Below are positions 231-55,920 of a stretch of DNA of 64,000 nucleotides, one piece after another. A program made the translations under genes and the position numbers. The notes beneath the pieces are model-generated. The model saw only the letters and a list, made by a program, of their open reading frames with translations, was not told the DNA's origin and did not search any database. Positions within the stretch are counted from its first letter, which is position 1. Each line of letters begins with the position of its first letter. The DNA is taken from positions 62,001 to 126,000 of the forward strand of contig JAFPUC010000007.1 of NCBI GenBank assembly GCA_017413255.1. Direction: 5' to 3'. Origin of the DNA: Aeriscardovia sp. Lineage in GTDB: Bacteria > Actinomycetota > Actinomycetes > Actinomycetales > Bifidobacteriaceae.

Positions 231-244
231 AAAAGGGGAGTTTT

Positions 245-1642
245 TTGACAAGTTTTAATACCCGAGATGCCTTTCTTGAAACCGGTAAAGCGAGAGGCAA
301 ACTCGTCCTCGTTACAGCAGCTCCCCCAGTAGCTGCTTCAAAAGGAGAGGGTAAAACCAGCTGCACTTTGGCCCTTTTGGATGCCGTAAGGCTGGCAGGG
401 GCCTCGGCATGCGCAGTTTTAAGGCAGCCCAGCATGGGCATAAGCGCAGCCGGTGCCAAGGGGGGCGCCAGCGGAGTTGGAAAGTCTGCACTAAAAGAAG
501 CTGCGCAGGCCGATTTTGGCCTGCAGGGGCAGATGCTTAGAATTGGGGCCTACCAAAACCTTTTAGTGAGCTTTGGGGAAAAAGAGGGGCAGGAGGAGGG
601 TCAAATCCTTCTTCCAAGAACTTCGTGCGTGCCGACAAAATATTTAAGAAAGGTGCAGGCTGGGCCCTACGGCGAGTCTTTTGTCCTCATTCCCACCTGC
701 GAAATGGAACAGGTACGGGTTCTTTCCCTTTCGGAAAAAGAGGCCAAAAAGGCCGTCGATGAGGTAACGGTCGCAAAATGCAGGGGAAAGTACCTGAGGG
801 CAAAAGATCTCCCCATTTTTGCATCATGGCCTGTTTTGTCTCCGGCTTTCCAAATTTCTCTTTTAAGCACTTTTAGAGGTTCGCCCGTCCTCATGTACTG
901 CGGTCCCTTTGCCAATGTTTCCCTGGGCATTCCGGGGCTCTGCGCCCTTAAGCTGGCCCTGTCAAAATACGATTGGGTGCTTATGGAGGCGGGCTACGGC
1001 TTTGATATGGGAATGCAAAAATACCTGGAAGTCGCCTCCAAAAAGGGATGCGCCCTTCCCGTAGGCGCCGTGGTAGTGAGGCGAAAGAAAAGCGGGGAAG
1101 GGCAATACCAATGGAAAATCCTTCAGGGTCAAAGATGCATGCGCGAGCTTGGACTTTTTTCCTTCCCTCTTTTAAACATTTTCGAGGGAGAAGAGAGAAA
1201 GGCGCCTTTGAAAGGCATGGCTTTAAACCCCGCAAAGGATGAAGAAAAGGAGCTTTTGCCTATAGGAGAAAAATTCCTATCGCTTCTTGAGGGGCAAAAG
1301 GGCATGAGGAAAGGGGCCTATAAGGGCTCGCTTCCCCTAATCACAAAAATTTCCTATATCTGCTCTGCTTTTTACGGCGTTCCTTCGGGAAGGGTGAAAT
1401 TTACAAGGGCTTTTAAAAAGGCTTATCTTCAAGCCGCCGGCCAGGCAAAATCTGAGGGGGCAAATCTTAAGGAATTTATAGTAAACGTCGTAAAGTCCCC
1501 TTCAACCCTAACCGACGACGACCTTAAAAAGTTTTCAAAGCGCACCGTAACCGTAAGGGCCATTTCTTTAAACACGGGCTCCAAAGTGGCAAACATCCGC
1601 CTCACACTGGCTCCTACCACATTTCTCCCCAGGGTTGTATAA
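245..1642 (+). CDS. Divergent, shortened formate-tetrahydrofolate ligase (Fhs-like)
   Basis: The 465-residue product aligns by eye to formate-THF ligase, which makes 10-formyl-THF from formate, ATP and THF in the cytosol. Visible landmarks are a P-loop-like GEGKTS (about residues 34-39), LRQPSMG followed by a KGG block (family form LREPSLGP and IKGGAAGGG), GPFANVSLG near 220, the EAGYGFDMG block near 250, and a C-terminal TLTDD/TVTVRAISLNTGS region matching the family SLSDDP/TVRDVRLSAGAG. The usual family length is about 555, so about 90 residues are missing, including the conserved HFTGD segment. The Glu of the REPS motif is Gln. Start is TTG with a GGGGAG Shine-Dalgarno at 235-240. It may still be active or be drifting towards loss of function. 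Confidence 0.75.
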   Translation: MTSFNTRDAFLETGKARGKLVLVTAAPPVAASKGEGKTSCTLALLDAVRLAGASACAVLRQPSMGISAAGAKGGASGVGKSALKEAAQADFGLQGQMLRIGAYQNLLVSFGEKEGQEEGQILLPRTSCVPTKYLRKVQAGPYGESFVLIPTCEMEQVRVLSLSEKEAKKAVDEVTVAKCRGKYLRAKDLPIFASWPVLSPAFQISLLSTFRGSPVLMYCGPFANVSLGIPGLCALKLALSKYDWVLMEAGYGFDMGMQKYLEVASKKGCALPVGAVVVRRKKSGEGQYQWKILQGQRCMRELGLFSFPLLNIFEGEERKAPLKGMALNPAKDEEKELLPIGEKFLSLLEGQKGMRKGAYKGSLPLITKISYICSAFYGVPSGRVKFTRAFKKAYLQAAGQAKSEGANLKEFIVNVVKSPSTLTDDDLKKFSKRTVTVRAISLNTGSKVANIRLTLAPTTFLPRVV

Positions 1643-35909: not shown

Positions 35910-36956
35910 TCAAATTCCTTTTAAAGAACTTTTCGATTCCTCCGGGAGCCGATCCTCCCTGGCTCCCTTCGCCACGTCTTTGGCATAGCCCGAGGCCAAA
36001 GAGTCGGCTATCTCGTTGAAAGCGTCGCCTGCATGGCCTTTGACCCATGCAAATTCAACGCTACCACTTCTTTGGGAAATTTCTTTTTCTATCGCCTGAA
36101 TGAGGGGGAGGTTTTTTATGCTGGATCCGTCGTTCTTTTTCCAGCCCCGCTTTTTCCACGCTTTCACCCAGTCGCGGCTGCAGCCTATGGCGTAGCGTGA
36201 ATCTGTTTCTATGAGAAGGTTCCCCTCTTTGAAGCGGCGAAGGGCCATCAAGACTGCCGTCAGCTCTCCTACCTGGTTTGTCCCCTGCCTGCATCCCCCG
36301 CTTTCTTTTTCCCCCGTCTCATGGTCCACCCACGCCCAGCCCATGGCCCCCCTCGGATTTGAGAGGGCAGATCCGTCCGTTGAGATTTTGCGGGGGAAGG
36401 GGGAGGTTCCCTGCGAAGATCGTGCCCCCGAAGAGGCAAAAGCGGCGCTTCTTTGCCTTCCCCACTTCATTTTCCCCTCGCAGAGGAAGGAGGCGGGGGC
36501 GGGCCCGGCGTGAGTGAGGCAGAAAACGGCCTTTTCAGTTCTTGAAGAAATCGGGGAAGGAAGGCAGGAGGGGTCGAACCAGCCCGAGCTTTCATTTTCC
36601 CCGTCCGGGCAGCCCGGGATCTGTCCACCGGGGGCAGAGCAGTAAAAAAGAATGTTTAGGGCGAGGATCTCGTCTCCGTTTGGGTAGATTTTGGGCTCAT
36701 CCATGGATTGGACGTTGGCTATGAATATGGGCTCGCACTCTACGCCCGTTTCTTCTTTAACTTCCCTTTTTACTGCATCTGCAGGCTGCTCTCCGGGCTC
36801 TATTATCCCCGCCACCATGCACCAGAGCCCGTCGTCTTTTCTCTTTGCCAGAAGAATTTTTCCTTCTTCGTTTTCTACTATGCCTTCTACTGCGCTGATC
36901 CAAAGCCTTTCGTTTCCCACTTTTTTTCTCAAATCCAGTATGTAGTCGGGAGTCAT
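35910..36956 (-). CDS. Nudix hydrolase - RNase HI fusion protein
   Basis: 348 residues with two complete domains. Residues about 15-150 are a Nudix hydrolase: the box runs from G50 (Gx5E at E56) to R64-E65-V-K-E-E-T-G71, with all metal ligands. Residues about 190-322 are RNase HI: D194 in STDGSA, E231 in GELTAV, D252 in IETDSRYA, H308 in KGHAG and D318 in NEIAD, plus the basic handle-like AWKKRGWKK. A linker of about 35 residues rich in Ser/Ala/Arg joins them. The product should hydrolyse a nucleoside diphosphate derivative and RNA in hybrids. In-frame through the junction, no sign of frameshift. Coupled to rpiA. Confidence 0.92.
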   Translation of the reverse strand: MTPDYILDLRKKVGNERLWISAVEGIVENEEGKILLAKRKDDGLWCMVAGIIEPGEQPADAVKREVKEETGVECEPIFIANVQSMDEPKIYPNGDEILALNILFYCSAPGGQIPGCPDGENESSGWFDPSCLPSPISSRTEKAVFCLTHAGPAPASFLCEGKMKWGRQRSAAFASSGARSSQGTSPFPRKISTDGSALSNPRGAMGWAWVDHETGEKESGGCRQGTNQVGELTAVLMALRRFKEGNLLIETDSRYAIGCSRDWVKAWKKRGWKKNDGSSIKNLPLIQAIEKEISQRSGSVEFAWVKGHAGDAFNEIADSLASGYAKDVAKGAREDRLPEESKSSLKGI

Positions 36957-36965
36957 CTCTTCCTT

Positions 36966-37745
36966 TCAGAGGCTGTAGCGGTTATTTGACTGAGTTTGAA
37001 GGTAGGTGGCAGAAGATCCCGTACCCACCCTAAAACCTGAAAAAGGCTCGTTTCCGGCCTTAACTACAAAACTGGGGGAGAGCTCGAAGGAAAAATTCTC
37101 TGTTTTATACGGGCTTTCCAGTACTGCAGAGCATGAAAGCTGCTGCTGGGAGCAGGAAGCCGTTTGCCCCCCCGATGCCTCGGGGGCGGAAAAAGAGAGA
37201 GTGGATCCGGAAAGGGTGTAGGGGACGGGGGAGGGAGCTTTGAAAGCGGCGTTTTGAACGTCTTCTATGCTCCTTTGCGCCGCTTCTATCGCCTTCTGGG
37301 CATTTTGTATCTGGCTTTGCCTGGCGGCGGAGTTTCCCTGGGCCGAAGAGGAAGCCATGGCGGTTCTAGCCCCGCTTTCTATGGCCTTCTGGGTGGAAAT
37401 TATCTGGTTAAAGGAAGCCACGTCGCTTTTAACGCTTTGTTCAAATTGCGCCTTGTCCATATTCAGGGCATCTTTAAGGATCTCTTCCTTGCTTTTGCCG
37501 AAAATCTGGGCGTAAGTGAAGCCGGATGTAGTGTTATAGGCAGTGACGCTTCCGGATGAAAAGTAGAGAATCTGGGAGATAGGCACCTTGGAACCCGCAG
37601 GGTAGGTGGATACAAACCAGACAGATGGAGAAGAAAAGGCCTGGGAAGCGCTTTCCTGACTGGGAGTGTTTCCGCATCCCGCCAGGAAGGGGAGGATGAG
37701 GAGTGGGCCCAAAAGCAGGGCTGACAAATATTTCATATACCGCAC
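36966..37745 (-). CDS. Lipoprotein of unknown function
   Basis: 259 residues. A lipoprotein signal peptide ends in the lipobox LAGC with C24 as the lipidated residue. Residues about 95-170 form a Gln/Ala/Ser-rich helical segment (probable coiled coil). The C-terminal part is beta-rich with Cys residues in CSQQQLSCS. No family recognised. It lies 9 nt upstream of the Nudix-RNase HI gene on the same strand, so it may be part of that transcript. Confidence 0.78.
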   Translation of the reverse strand: MRYMKYLSALLLGPLLILPFLAGCGNTPSQESASQAFSSPSVWFVSTYPAGSKVPISQILYFSSGSVTAYNTTSGFTYAQIFGKSKEEILKDALNMDKAQFEQSVKSDVASFNQIISTQKAIESGARTAMASSSAQGNSAARQSQIQNAQKAIEAAQRSIEDVQNAAFKAPSPVPYTLSGSTLSFSAPEASGGQTASCSQQQLSCSAVLESPYKTENFSFELSPSFVVKAGNEPFSGFRVGTGSSATYLQTQSNNRYSL

Positions 37746-37802
37746 TGTTTCACCTTCTCAGTTTATGATAGCCCAGTAAAAACAGAGCGCTCGGAGGGAA
37801 AA

Positions 37803-39077
37803 ATGACAAAAAGAGAGGAAAAAAGCGAAGGCGAAATATGGGGGGAAATTTGGTCGAAAAAGGGCGAAAAAGAAGAGATGGCCCCCTCCAGAATGAAGGA
37901 GGCCCTCAAACTTTTAGGCTCCCCCCAATCCCTTTTCGCCCCCATTTTTCTGTGGGGGGAGGGAAAAGAAAGTTCGTGCGCCCTTTTGGATTCGCTTTTG
38001 CAAACTTACGGGGTGGGGGCAGGTGTTTTTTGCTCTGGAGCCAAAGATCTTAAGGGCTCTATCAAAGTGAGGGGGGAAAGCCCCTCTTCAAAGAGGCTTT
38101 CCGATCTCTATGGGGAACTTACAAATTTTCTTTCCCTTGCCGAAAAGAAGTTTGAAAAGGAAGGCCTTGGAAAAATGGGTCCGATGGAAGTTCTGCTCTG
38201 CTTTTCGGCCCTGGAATTTTCGGACGAACCGGTGGACGTGGCCATGTTTGAAGTGCCTAACGAGGGGTTTGAAGGGATTTTTGAAGCCCTGGGCCCTTCG
38301 GGGCTGATATTGACTTCCGATCCTTCTTCTCCCCTCCCCATAGATCTTGCGCAGTCTTCCCCCTTCACCGCTTCCCTCCTGCAGAGAGAAGAGGAGATGG
38401 AAAGCATCAGGGAGGCTGCCCGGGAATCGGGAGCCTGCCTTTTGGTGGACGGAGAGGATTTGAGAGTGTCTAACGACCTTTTGGCCGTAGGAGGCCAGGT
38501 GGCAGATCTTTGCACTCCCAGGGGCCTTTACCCCCAGGTGCCCATAAAGCTTTTCGGGGAGTTTGAGGCCCACCTCTCCCTCCTCTGCCTTTCAACTGCA
38601 GAGAGGCTGCTAAGCGAAGGAAAGCTTGAAGAGGATTTGGTCTCGGAAGCCTTTTCCACAGTCAAGATCCCCGGAAGCTTGAAGGTGGAAAAGGCCGATC
38701 CTTTAACGCTCTCCTCTTCTGCCGCTTCCCCGTTTAAAACGGAGCTGTGCCTCTCGGCCTTAGAAGAAACCTTCCACCCCTCTTGGCTTGCAGTAGTGCT
38801 GGCCGCGGGAAAAAATTTTGACCCCGCTTCTTTAAAGGTTTTGGAAAGGTCCTGCGATCTTTTAATCGTGACGCAGATCTCGGGAGGAAAAGCGGGGGCC
38901 GAAGCTGTTTTTTCTTTGGCAGGAGACTACTTTGATTCTTCGCGCCTTCTATGCGTTCCCGATTTTTCTTCTGCCCTCAAAAAAGGGAGGGAAGCGGCCC
39001 TCGGACAGGAAGAGGGATGCGTGCTTGTAATGGGGGGAATGGAAGCCGTCAGGCAGGCTGAAAAAGATCTCAGTTAA
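37803..39077 (+). CDS. FolC-fold (folylpolyglutamate synthase-like) protein lacking ligase motifs
   Basis: 424 residues. The framework follows FolC: LLGSPQSLFAPIF, TYGVGAGVFCSG, GELTNFL, MGPMEVLLCFSALEF, DVAMFEV, and the C-terminal IPGSLKVEKADPL and a VLVMGGMEAV close. Every catalytic motif is changed: the P-loop GTNGKGS is WGEGKESS (51-58), VGMGG is VPNEG (151-155), the LDH motif is TSDPSS (171-176), and DGAHNP is SSSAASP (304-310). The reading frame is fully open and codon use is like its neighbours. I infer a pseudoenzyme or a very recent loss. It overlaps the convergent MurE-type gene by 8 nt. Confidence 0.7.
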   Translation: MTKREEKSEGEIWGEIWSKKGEKEEMAPSRMKEALKLLGSPQSLFAPIFLWGEGKESSCALLDSLLQTYGVGAGVFCSGAKDLKGSIKVRGESPSSKRLSDLYGELTNFLSLAEKKFEKEGLGKMGPMEVLLCFSALEFSDEPVDVAMFEVPNEGFEGIFEALGPSGLILTSDPSSPLPIDLAQSSPFTASLLQREEEMESIREAARESGACLLVDGEDLRVSNDLLAVGGQVADLCTPRGLYPQVPIKLFGEFEAHLSLLCLSTAERLLSEGKLEEDLVSEAFSTVKIPGSLKVEKADPLTLSSSAASPFKTELCLSALEETFHPSWLAVVLAAGKNFDPASLKVLERSCDLLIVTQISGGKAGAEAVFSLAGDYFDSSRLLCVPDFSSALKKGREAALGQEEGCVLVMGGMEAVRQAEKDLS

Positions 39078-40599
39078 TCTCTTTTTCCCACTCTTTTACG
39101 ATGGAAGGGTCAGACTTTTGAGCAACCTTCTTCCCTGCCACTTTTACCCAGTCTTCTTCCCCCTTCCCCACCAGAAGCACCACGTTGTGCCGGCCGGTCT
39201 TTTCAGAGTCTTTCTTGGCCCCGTTGAGCGCTGAAAGCACGGCCAGGGTCCTGTCATCCTCCCTTTCGACCCGGGTATTGGGATTGTCTACCGCCTTTTC
39301 TATTTGGGCATCTATCTGATCTAGGGAATCAAAATCCCTGTCGTCAGTCGTTAGAATGAGCCTGCCCGCTCCAAGCGACGCGGCTTTGCCAAGCCCCTCC
39401 CTGCGGTTAAGGCCTTTGGTTCCGGTAGCTCCCGTAACTACGGTTATGAAAGGATCTTTGAAAGCCGACTGCACGTGGCGTATAAGGGATGCCAAAGACA
39501 GGTAATTGTGGGCGTAGTCGACGTAGACCGTAACGCCCGGCGCCGGATCCATCCTTTCCATGCGCCCTGCAACTTTCACTTTCTCTAAGGCGTGCAGGGC
39601 GGGGCTCTCTGTAGGAACTCCGCATTCTATTGCAAGAGCTATGGCGGCCATGGCGTTGGCGAGGTTAAAGTCTCCCTCCATTGCCAAATCGAACGCCCCC
39701 AGGCTCTTTCCTTCAAAAAAGATTTCGCTCCCCTTTTCGCCTTTCTTTAAGTAAAGGTCTGAGGAAGAGGAGGAGAGGGAAAAAGAGAGGCTCCGGCTTT
39801 TCTTTTCGGCTTCTTCTTTTATCAGCCCCTCAAACTTTCCAAGATCTGCGCTGTAAACGGCGCTCCTGCTGTTTTTAAGAAGCTGGCGCTTGCAGAAAAA
39901 GTAGTCCTCAAAATTGGGGTGCTCACTGGGAGAGACGTGGTCGGGGGAGATATTCAAAAAAGCCCCCGCATCAAACTCAATACCCTCGACCCTTGAAACT
40001 TTGTAGGCCTGGCTCGACACTTCCATTACAAAGTGGCCAACGCCGTGCTCGAGGGCATCGCTTAGGGCTTTGAAGATGTCTAGAGATTCGGGAGTAGTGA
40101 GAGAAGAAGGGGTGAAGGTTTTTCCGTCCGAGCAATTTTTGTCGGAAGAGAGCAGGCCGCAGCTCCCAAAATATGAAGAAAGGATGGCGTGGGTGAAGAA
40201 GGCTGTGGTCGTCTTTCCCTTGGTTCCCGTAATTGCAGCCAAACATATCCTCTCTTGGGGGTAGGAATAAAAGTAGGCGCCCACTTTAGCCATGGCCTTA
40301 GAGACGTCTTGAACCACGATCGCCGTGGCCGAAGATGAAAGATAGGGGCGGGAAGAGACATAAAAGAGGCTTTGAGAACTCTTAAGGTACTCTTCTTTAA
40401 ACGCTCCCTTGCAAAACAGGAGAGTCGAGGGGGAAGCGGTTTTTGAAGTGTAGGAAAGAGAATCTATATTAAACTCGGTAAGATCGCCTTCGTTGCGGCT
40501 CCACTTGTCTTTGGAAATGACTTCCCTCAGCAGCCCCTCTTTCTTTAAGAGCCTGACTATGTTTCTTATGTTTTCTTTTCTCTGCACTACAGGCCCCAC
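39070..40599 (-). CDS. murE: MurE-type UDP-MurNAc-tripeptide ligase
   Basis: 509 residues. The P-loop ITGTKGKTTT (about 123-132), SPDHV, the FEDYFFCKRQLL lysine for carbamylation, GDFNLANAMAA and VDYAHN are intact, so it is a working Mur ligase adding the third residue of the stem peptide. The specificity region reads TTDDRDFDSLDQI rather than the DNPR motif of meso-DAP enzymes, which fits an enzyme adding Lys or Orn, though this reading is tentative. It overlaps the upstream exonuclease by 13 nt. It could also be a MurE paralogue. Confidence 0.88.
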   Translation of the reverse strand: MGPVVQRKENIRNIVRLLKKEGLLREVISKDKWSRNEGDLTEFNIDSLSYTSKTASPSTLLFCKGAFKEEYLKSSQSLFYVSSRPYLSSSATAIVVQDVSKAMAKVGAYFYSYPQERICLAAITGTKGKTTTAFFTHAILSSYFGSCGLLSSDKNCSDGKTFTPSSLTTPESLDIFKALSDALEHGVGHFVMEVSSQAYKVSRVEGIEFDAGAFLNISPDHVSPSEHPNFEDYFFCKRQLLKNSRSAVYSADLGKFEGLIKEEAEKKSRSLSFSLSSSSSDLYLKKGEKGSEIFFEGKSLGAFDLAMEGDFNLANAMAAIALAIECGVPTESPALHALEKVKVAGRMERMDPAPGVTVYVDYAHNYLSLASLIRHVQSAFKDPFITVVTGATGTKGLNRREGLGKAASLGAGRLILTTDDRDFDSLDQIDAQIEKAVDNPNTRVEREDDRTLAVLSALNGAKKDSEKTGRHNVVLLVGKGEEDWVKVAGKKVAQKSDPSIVKEWEKEIN

Positions 40600-53870: not shown

Positions 53871-55202
53871 TTGAAAAATACGAGTTCTCCCCTTAGCGTG
53901 GCAGTGGGAAAGGGCGTGCAGGGTGCCTGCAAAATCCTAAAGAGGGGGCACTCTTTGCCGGGGATGATCGTAGAAAAGATGGATGCGGGATTTCTGTCTT
54001 CTGCCCTAAGACAGCTTCCTTTGGGCACGATGATTGTCTGCGGAACTAACGGAAAAACTACGACGGCGCGCCTGATTGCCCAGGCCCTCTCTTCTTTGGG
54101 GCTTAAGACGGTTACAAATGATTCGGGAGCAAACTTTACAAGGGGAATTATTTCCTCCCTTCTGCCCCTTATGACTCCTTCCGGAAAGCTCCCCTGCGAT
54201 ATCGGGGTGTTTGAACTGGATGAGGCATGGGCCCCTATATTCTGCAGGCAGTTCCCGCCGGATTATGCCCTCATTTTGAACTGCTGCAGAGATCAGCTGG
54301 ACCGCTACGGGGAAAGGGATGCGGTCGAAGCCATGCTTTCCCAAGTAGCCTCTTTTGCCAAAAGGGGCCTTATACTGAATGCTGCAGACAGGAGGGTGAA
54401 GGGTTTTTCCAGCCGTTTTCCGGAGGCCAAGACCTCCTTTTACGGTTTTGACCTTTCCCTGTCTCCCCTATTTCCCGGCGATGAAGACTTGATATGCATG
54501 AGGCATGGGTGCGTTTCCCCCGTTCAAAGCGACTTGGCTTCGGTGGTGCTTAGGGCGATAACCGGAAATACTGCCACTTTTGAAATTGAAGGGCAAAAGC
54601 TCTCCCTTGAAATGGGGATAAAGGGCAGTTTCAATTTTCTAAATGCCGCCGCCGCAATTTGCGGAATTTTAAATATAGCCCGAACCTGCCCCGCCCTTAA
54701 AAATTCGGTCCGCTTTAAGGATCTGGACTTAGGGCCTAAAGCCGTTGCAGAGGCCGTCTCCAAGGTCCGTCCAGCCTTCGGAAGGGGGGAAGGGTTCAAA
54801 ATCGGGCAATCTCATGTAGAGATGGTCCTTGTCAAAAACCCCGTGGGCTTTTCTTCGGCCCTGCGTTCAATCCCGCTTGAAGGAAAAGAAGTAATGGTAG
54901 CTTTAAATGACCAAAGCGCCGACGGCAGGGATGTGAGCTGGATATATGACGTGGACTATTCAAACCTGTCTACGATCAAGGCCGTGAGCGGGCAGAGAGC
55001 TTTTGACATGGCCCTGTGCCTGGAATACAACGGCAAAAAAGTGGTGAGAGCCGATCTGGACATAGAGGAAAGCCTGATGCACTTTCTTGAGGGCGGGGGC
55101 GACAAGATAATATTTTCCAGTTATACTTCCATGCTCTCCATCCGCAAAATCCTTTTGGATCTGGACAAGAGCAAAGGAGGGAATTTATATGCGGCGGATT
55201 GA
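53871..55202 (+). CDS. murT: MurT, lipid II isoglutaminyl synthase Mur-ligase-like subunit
   Basis: 443 residues. The P-loop is CGTNGKTTTARLIA (about 58-71). ELDEAWAP and the DUF1727 C-terminal domain with RPAFGRGE, LVKNPVGFSSAL and ALNDQSADGRDVSWIYD follow. It activates the D-Glu of lipid II for amidation by GatD. The four-Cys zinc ribbon found in staphylococcal and streptococcal MurT is missing; only CMRHGC remains in that region. TTG start with AGGAGG 6 nt upstream; it overlaps gatD by 14 nt. Confidence 0.93.
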   Translation: MKNTSSPLSVAVGKGVQGACKILKRGHSLPGMIVEKMDAGFLSSALRQLPLGTMIVCGTNGKTTTARLIAQALSSLGLKTVTNDSGANFTRGIISSLLPLMTPSGKLPCDIGVFELDEAWAPIFCRQFPPDYALILNCCRDQLDRYGERDAVEAMLSQVASFAKRGLILNAADRRVKGFSSRFPEAKTSFYGFDLSLSPLFPGDEDLICMRHGCVSPVQSDLASVVLRAITGNTATFEIEGQKLSLEMGIKGSFNFLNAAAAICGILNIARTCPALKNSVRFKDLDLGPKAVAEAVSKVRPAFGRGEGFKIGQSHVEMVLVKNPVGFSSALRSIPLEGKEVMVALNDQSADGRDVSWIYDVDYSNLSTIKAVSGQRAFDMALCLEYNGKKVVRADLDIEESLMHFLEGGGDKIIFSSYTSMLSIRKILLDLDKSKGGNLYAAD

Positions 55203-55920
55203 TGTTCTTTCCCTTTACACCAACGACATGAGCTTTTACGGGGATATGGGAAACGTCCTCATAGTTTCCAAAAGGCTCTCTTTTTATGGTTTTGAGCCTG
55301 TGGTCCACTTTTACAATCCGGGCGACAGCTTTCCCGATCATGTTGACATGATTTTGGGAGGAGGCGGACAAGATTCGGGGCAAAAGAATATATTCGACGA
55401 TCTGCAGATGAGGGGGAAAATGCTGCGGCAGCTCTCAACCCAGGGCGTCCCTATGCTGATGATTTGCGGAATGTACCAGCTGTTTGGAAAGTACTTTCTA
55501 ACCAATTCCGGAAAAAAGATTCCCGGCATTTCTGTTTTTGACGTCTACACCGAGGCAACTTCCGACAGGCTTATAGGAAATCTGGTAGAGGAGTCGGAGC
55601 TGTTTGGAAGGCTGGCGGGCTTTGAAAACCATTCGGGCCAAACCTATTTTTCTTCCCCCCTCACCCCTCTGGGCAAAGTCACCTCGGGAGGGGGCAACAA
55701 TTCAAAAGACGGAGTAGACGGGGTTATCGTAAATAACACCATAGGCACCTATCTTCACGGCCCGGTACTTTCCAAAAACCCCAAGCTGGCAGACTTTCTA
55801 ATCTGCAAGGCGCAGCTGGAAAGATATGGGGAAGAGCAGCTCCCCCCCTCTCCGGTTTTACGCCGCATTGATGAACTGGCTGCCAAAGGCAACGAAGTCG
55901 CCAGCAGGAGGCCTAGATAG
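55189..55920 (+). CDS. gatD: GatD, lipid II isoglutaminyl synthase glutaminase subunit
   Basis: 243 residues. A class I amidotransferase: ICGMYQLFG carries the nucleophile Cys, and GTYLHGP the catalytic His. It delivers ammonia to MurT to amidate D-isoglutamate of the peptidoglycan stem. It is translationally coupled to murT and its 3' end overlaps a convergent glycosylase gene by 8 nt. Confidence 0.94.
   Translation: MRRIDVLSLYTNDMSFYGDMGNVLIVSKRLSFYGFEPVVHFYNPGDSFPDHVDMILGGGGQDSGQKNIFDDLQMRGKMLRQLSTQGVPMLMICGMYQLFGKYFLTNSGKKIPGISVFDVYTEATSDRLIGNLVEESELFGRLAGFENHSGQTYFSSPLTPLGKVTSGGGNNSKDGVDGVIVNNTIGTYLHGPVLSKNPKLADFLICKAQLERYGEEQLPPSPVLRRIDELAAKGNEVASRRPR

Follow-up and report, generated by a model that had tools for sequence, protein, structure and literature searches.

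The only FolC homologue of an Aeriscardovia-like bacterium, here termed pseudo-FolC, is an orthologue of its family's FolC by homology and position, but it had already lost its ATP, Mg, lysine-carbamate and glutamate-transfer motifs when the genus began to radiate. The gene is still under purifying selection, with an altered pattern of constraint. It is probable from these comparisons that a single-copy FolC has become a non-catalytic protein without gene duplication, its N-terminal domain likely acting as a scaffold or adaptor.

The pseudo-FolC gene lies in a 64,000-nucleotide window (the whole stretch of DNA analysed) from an assembly of 928,029 bases (0.93 Mb; estimated 100% complete, 0.12% contamination); other genomes of the family, which the genus name identifies as Bifidobacteriaceae, are mostly 1-3 Mb. 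Contigs related to this host genus come from ruminant metagenome-assembled genomes, sampled in the abomasum and reticulum of yak and water buffalo. A search with two peptide patterns in one genome per species (about 85,000 species), which would miss distant relatives, detected relatives only under the genus name Aeriscardovia. The intact frame of 424 codons described in the sequence-only reading is present (Table 1), and, within the reach of their contigs, its relatives in the genus share the gene order around it. Misassembly was rejected, since seven assemblies agree.

Table 1. Features of the pseudo-FolC locus and of other genes in the window
Feature	Codons	Position	Strand	Evidence or remark
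Divergent short Fhs (stop-to-stop frame)		233..1639	+	left edge of the window; P-loop GEGKTS, RQPSMG and KGGASG intact
Nudix hydrolase-RNase H fusion, single frame	348	35910-36956	-	PF00293 at 22-132, PF00075 at 192-323; conserved in 7/7 genus genomes
Lipoprotein-like gene, no recognised domain		36966-37745	-	divergent from pseudo-FolC, <60 bases between; conserved in 7/7 genus genomes
Shine-Dalgarno GGAGGG		37793..37798	+	strong, 4 bases 5' of the pseudo-FolC ATG; read directly
Pseudo-FolC gene, the genome's only FolC homologue	424	37803..39077	+	uninterrupted ORF, ATG at 37803, stop ends at 39077; FolC profiles, Mtb FolC match, orthologues in 7/7 genomes
N-terminal helices	8-46	37824..37940	+	more conserved than in active FolCs (mean identity 0.70 vs 0.57)
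P-loop remnant, GEGKESS for GTNGKGST	52-58	37956..37976	+	canonical FolC comparison
Former TSPH...ER loop	77-86	38031..38060	+	Ser deleted, His and Arg lost; canonical FolC comparison
Helix, variable in active FolCs, constrained here	93-124	38079..38174	+	mean identity 0.74 vs 0.49; dN/dS 0.12
FFE to PME, then strand ending in retained Glu150	125-152	38175..38258	+	dN/dS 0.055-0.08
Former GGxxDATN, DHxxxLG and KAGI segments	153-200	38259..38402	+	lost, shortened, fast evolving; dN/dS 0.2-0.26
AVGGQVADLxTPxGLYPQVPIKLFGxFxAH and following helices to PGS	227-293	38481..38681	+	most constrained part; dN/dS 0.02-0.05
Former DGAHN motif, now SSSAAS	304-309	38712..38729	+	canonical FolC comparison
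MurE, convergent with pseudo-FolC		39070..40599	-	profile match; marker of ancestral FolC position
MurT		53871-55202	+	151 bits vs curated cut-off 800
GatD, with MurT lipid II isoglutaminyl synthase		55189-55920	+	168 bits vs curated cut-off 400

A reading of the gene as a member of another family was rejected, because profile searches assign it to FolC, in agreement with the assignment first proposed. Pseudo-FolC matches NF047860 with E 3.5e-30 (105 bits; curated cut-off 700), TIGR01499 with E 2e-10 (41 bits; cut-off 162.65) and Mtb FolC (PDB 2vor) with E 8e-19, and a profile of the genus sequences matches 2vor with E 1e-32 over residues 27-396; the scores fall far under the curated cut-offs for functional FolC (DHFS/FPGS). 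Pfam Mur_ligase_M gave no match in profile searches of pseudo-FolC, and Mur_ligase_C gave a marginal one (E 0.06). The canonical folC of sister genera (g11, for example) is convergent to a MurE-like hit, as in this genus, so position and sequence both identify the window gene as the FolC orthologue. In a FolC tree the seven pseudo-FolCs form a group (100% support) with a very long stem (1.33) that joins the rest of the tree at an unreliable point, and an AlphaFold model built from an alignment of 7 sequences only reached a pLDDT of 49.

Motif loss was assessed by comparison with 37 canonical FolCs from the family, in which 80 columns are invariant. Within motifs (the motif windows being author-defined) 7 of 44 such columns are kept in all seven species, compared with 19 of the 36 outside them (Fisher p 0.0007). 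The P-loop has lost its Asn and, by deletion, its Thr (GTNGKGST to G-EGKESS), and its Lys is Arg in three of the seven species. Also lost are the TSPH...ER loop, the GxGGxxDATN, DHxxxLG and IAxxKAGIxK segments, DxxHN (His and Asn in 7/7 species, Asp in 6/7) and DK, together with the Asn of HQxxN and the Arg of PGR. The lid bearing the carbamylated Lys (KAGI) is deleted, and the SPH loop and DHxxxLG are replaced or deleted, in all seven. These losses cannot be put down to a shifted alignment alone, as some are deletions: the P-loop Thr, the Ser of SPH and the greater part of the DHxxxLG-to-KAGI segment. The earlier statement that every ligase motif was lost is nonetheless slightly too strong: nearly all are replaced or deleted, but Glu150 (EVG), Glu129 (FFE), two glycines of the P-loop and the PG hinge of PGR are retained in all seven, Glu150 being the sole survivor of the Mg and lid residues. 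Compared with FolC as represented by TIGR01499, NF047860 and 2vor, then, pseudo-FolC shares full-length homology, adjacency to MurE and framework residues, and differs in the loss of the catalytic, Mg, P-loop, lid and pterin-pocket motifs. We infer that it has no ligase activity; residual nucleotide or metal binding may persist, because Glu150 and part of the P-loop glycines do.

No second or canonical FolC was detected in the source genome by family profile searches of whole genomes, on which all gene absences reported here are based. Mur_ligase_M hits fall in five places in that genome, namely MurE, three genes in one cluster on contig 12 that are taken to be MurC, MurD and MurF, and MurT beside GatD. 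The check for another folC that had been called for gave the same answer in the rest of the genus: TIGR01499 is above its cut-off in 107 of the 121 family genomes (220-358 bits), including most sister genera, but scores <48 bits in all seven genus genomes, none of which encodes a canonical FolC, and pseudo-FolC is full-length with an open frame in every one of them. Four incomplete genomes of g5, also a reduced lineage within the family, yielded no FolC of either kind, which indicates that an unneeded folC is able to disappear.

The folate genes of the genus are consistent with an organism that salvages folate and has given up polyglutamate synthesis. None of the seven genus genomes encodes FolP, which is present in the four sister genomes tested; DHFR is found in 6/7 genomes, adjoining ThyA in the four loci read, and all seven have FolD, Fhs and a member of the formyltransferase family that we take to be Fmt. 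With FolP gone while folate-using enzymes stay, the genus must import folates. The exception for DHFR is a 0.6 Mb genome (G003, 95% complete) that has pseudo-FolC, FolD, Fhs and the formyltransferase-family protein, its lack of DHFR reflecting either an assembly gap or a further loss. A search for FolT gave one hit per genus genome, below the cut-off; that in genome G000 (L099, contig 13, 2004-2276) is ECF S-component-like and, as read by eye, lies near a cobalamin-adenosyltransferase-like gene and an ECF-type ATPase. Given the score and these neighbours, it is probably not FolT.

In such a salvager, which apparently cannot add the polyglutamate tail that retains folate, pseudo-FolC might use its cleft to hold imported monoglutamyl folate in the cell or to pass it to ThyA, DHFR or Fhs. 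This is unlikely. The FFE aromatics and the DATN segment, which reportedly form the pterin pocket of E. coli FolC (Mathieu 2005), are changed to Pro and Met/Leu and lost, respectively, in all seven species, and the cleft loops are among the fastest-evolving parts of the protein. The folate-binding role first suggested for the gene is weakened by these changes; the scaffold role suggested with it is possible and is the class of function preferred here, as an interpretation of the constraint pattern described below.

Estimated by NG86, a simple method, and with dS approaching saturation between distant species, dN/dS for pseudo-FolC is 0.127 in the closest pair (dS 0.44) and 0.13-0.18 elsewhere (dS up to >1), as compared with 0.06-0.09 for the neighbouring MurE and 0.11-0.18 for the Nudix-RNase H gene. 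The comparison of relatives proposed in the sequence-only reading thus reveals purifying selection and, with a full-length gene in 7/7 genomes and no canonical folC in the genus, bears out its description of a pseudoenzyme under constraint. Constraint is uneven, dN/dS being 0.02-0.08 in residues 125-152 and 227-293 but 0.19-0.37 in the C-domain and in loops 71-92 and 153-200, which were once part of the active site. It is also displaced relative to active FolCs: mean identity falls from 0.83 to 0.50 in residues 71-92 and from 0.75 to 0.43 in 153-200, and conservation at individual sites shows almost no correlation between active FolCs and pseudo-FolC (r 0.10). When the gain in 8-46 and 93-124 was set against the loss in 71-92 and 153-200, a contrast picked post hoc, 1 of 402 circular shifts was as extreme. 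This pattern is the one expected of a protein that has taken on a new, non-catalytic job, and it fits neither a gene in decay nor a ligase with slight alterations.

The same data bear on whether the function is new at all. FolC in this family may always have had a second, non-catalytic function, which this lineage kept alone; block 227-258, well conserved in active FolCs (mean identity 0.77) and more so in pseudo-FolC (0.89), would fit such a history. We regard it as distinctly improbable, since residues 8-46 and 93-124 are constrained here but poorly conserved in active FolCs (0.57 and 0.49), a difference that points to a newly acquired interface and not an ancestral one. Migration of catalytic residues, known in other pseudoenzymes (PMC10211241), could in principle have left a cryptic enzyme that still ligates glutamate or another amino acid, and Glu150 and a G-x-G-K/R remnant persist. 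Such an activity is very hard to reconcile with a P-loop whose Thr is deleted and whose Lys is replaced in three species, with the deleted lid and lost DxxHN, and with former active loops that are unconstrained. That the gene is simply decaying, with disruption still to come, is scarcely credible: it is the fastest evolving of the locus genes compared, in a reduced genome, and its C-domain is weakly constrained, but its dN/dS across the genus at such dS, its seven open frames, the invariance of 26 of the 32 codons of 227-258 and the apparent disappearance of folC from g5 all stand against it. A recent loss of function, as once suggested, is likewise at odds with motif losses that predate the genus radiation and with continuing purifying selection.

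The conversion of the ligase into a structural or regulatory protein without duplication may, tentatively, be explained by loss of de novo folate synthesis, which would have freed the active site, and by a new N-domain interface that became essential. The starting point is the single-copy FolC of the family, at its ancestral site beside the convergent MurE. Its catalytic motifs were lost ahead of the genus radiation, no other FolC exists in the genus genomes, and the genus, lacking FolP but keeping folate-using enzymes, must import folate. Folate would then be used as monoglutamate or imported polyglutamate, without polyglutamylation by the cell itself, and the N-terminal domain would now bind a partner, most likely another protein, in the role of scaffold or adaptor.

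In many known cases a pseudoenzyme modulates an active relative with which it coexists. As no active FolC occurs in the genus genomes, a dead FolC cannot tune a FolC paralogue there. The inactive SHMT isoform PfSHMTm of Plasmodium falciparum, for which a partner-binding role has been proposed, is similarly a conserved folate-pathway protein that is missing active-site residues (PMC3014972), but it coexists with an active SHMT, whereas the pseudo-FolC genomes are without active FolC. Mycoplasmas that encode DHFR, ThyA and Fmt without folC offer a metabolic parallel, and they have been suggested to use monoglutamyl folate (PMC1971073); these folate salvagers resemble the genus in keeping those three proteins, in having no FolP and in that polyglutamylation is not expected, but they have no folC gene at all, while the Aeriscardovia-like genus retains one that is inactive yet constrained. 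A search of the open-access literature found neither a described FolC pseudoenzyme nor a precedent for a folate salvager that retains the body of FolC. Whether FolC always held a second function that was isolated in this lineage, or a new one evolved, either reading bears on the role of FolC in ordinary bacteria and on folate use without polyglutamylation.

SHMT is absent from the genus, and from three of the four sister genomes tested. With SHMT absent and Fhs present, one-carbon units probably enter from formate through Fhs, which may be their sole entry. The pairing of pseudo-FolC with an eroded Fhs, as had been suggested, is not supported: sister genera g3, g11 and g12, all of which have canonical FolC, carry this short, divergent type of Fhs too, its GEGKTS/T P-loop intact. 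Judging from this distribution, the short Fhs is a variant of the family, not an erosion tied to FolC loss, and the version in this genus has drifted further.
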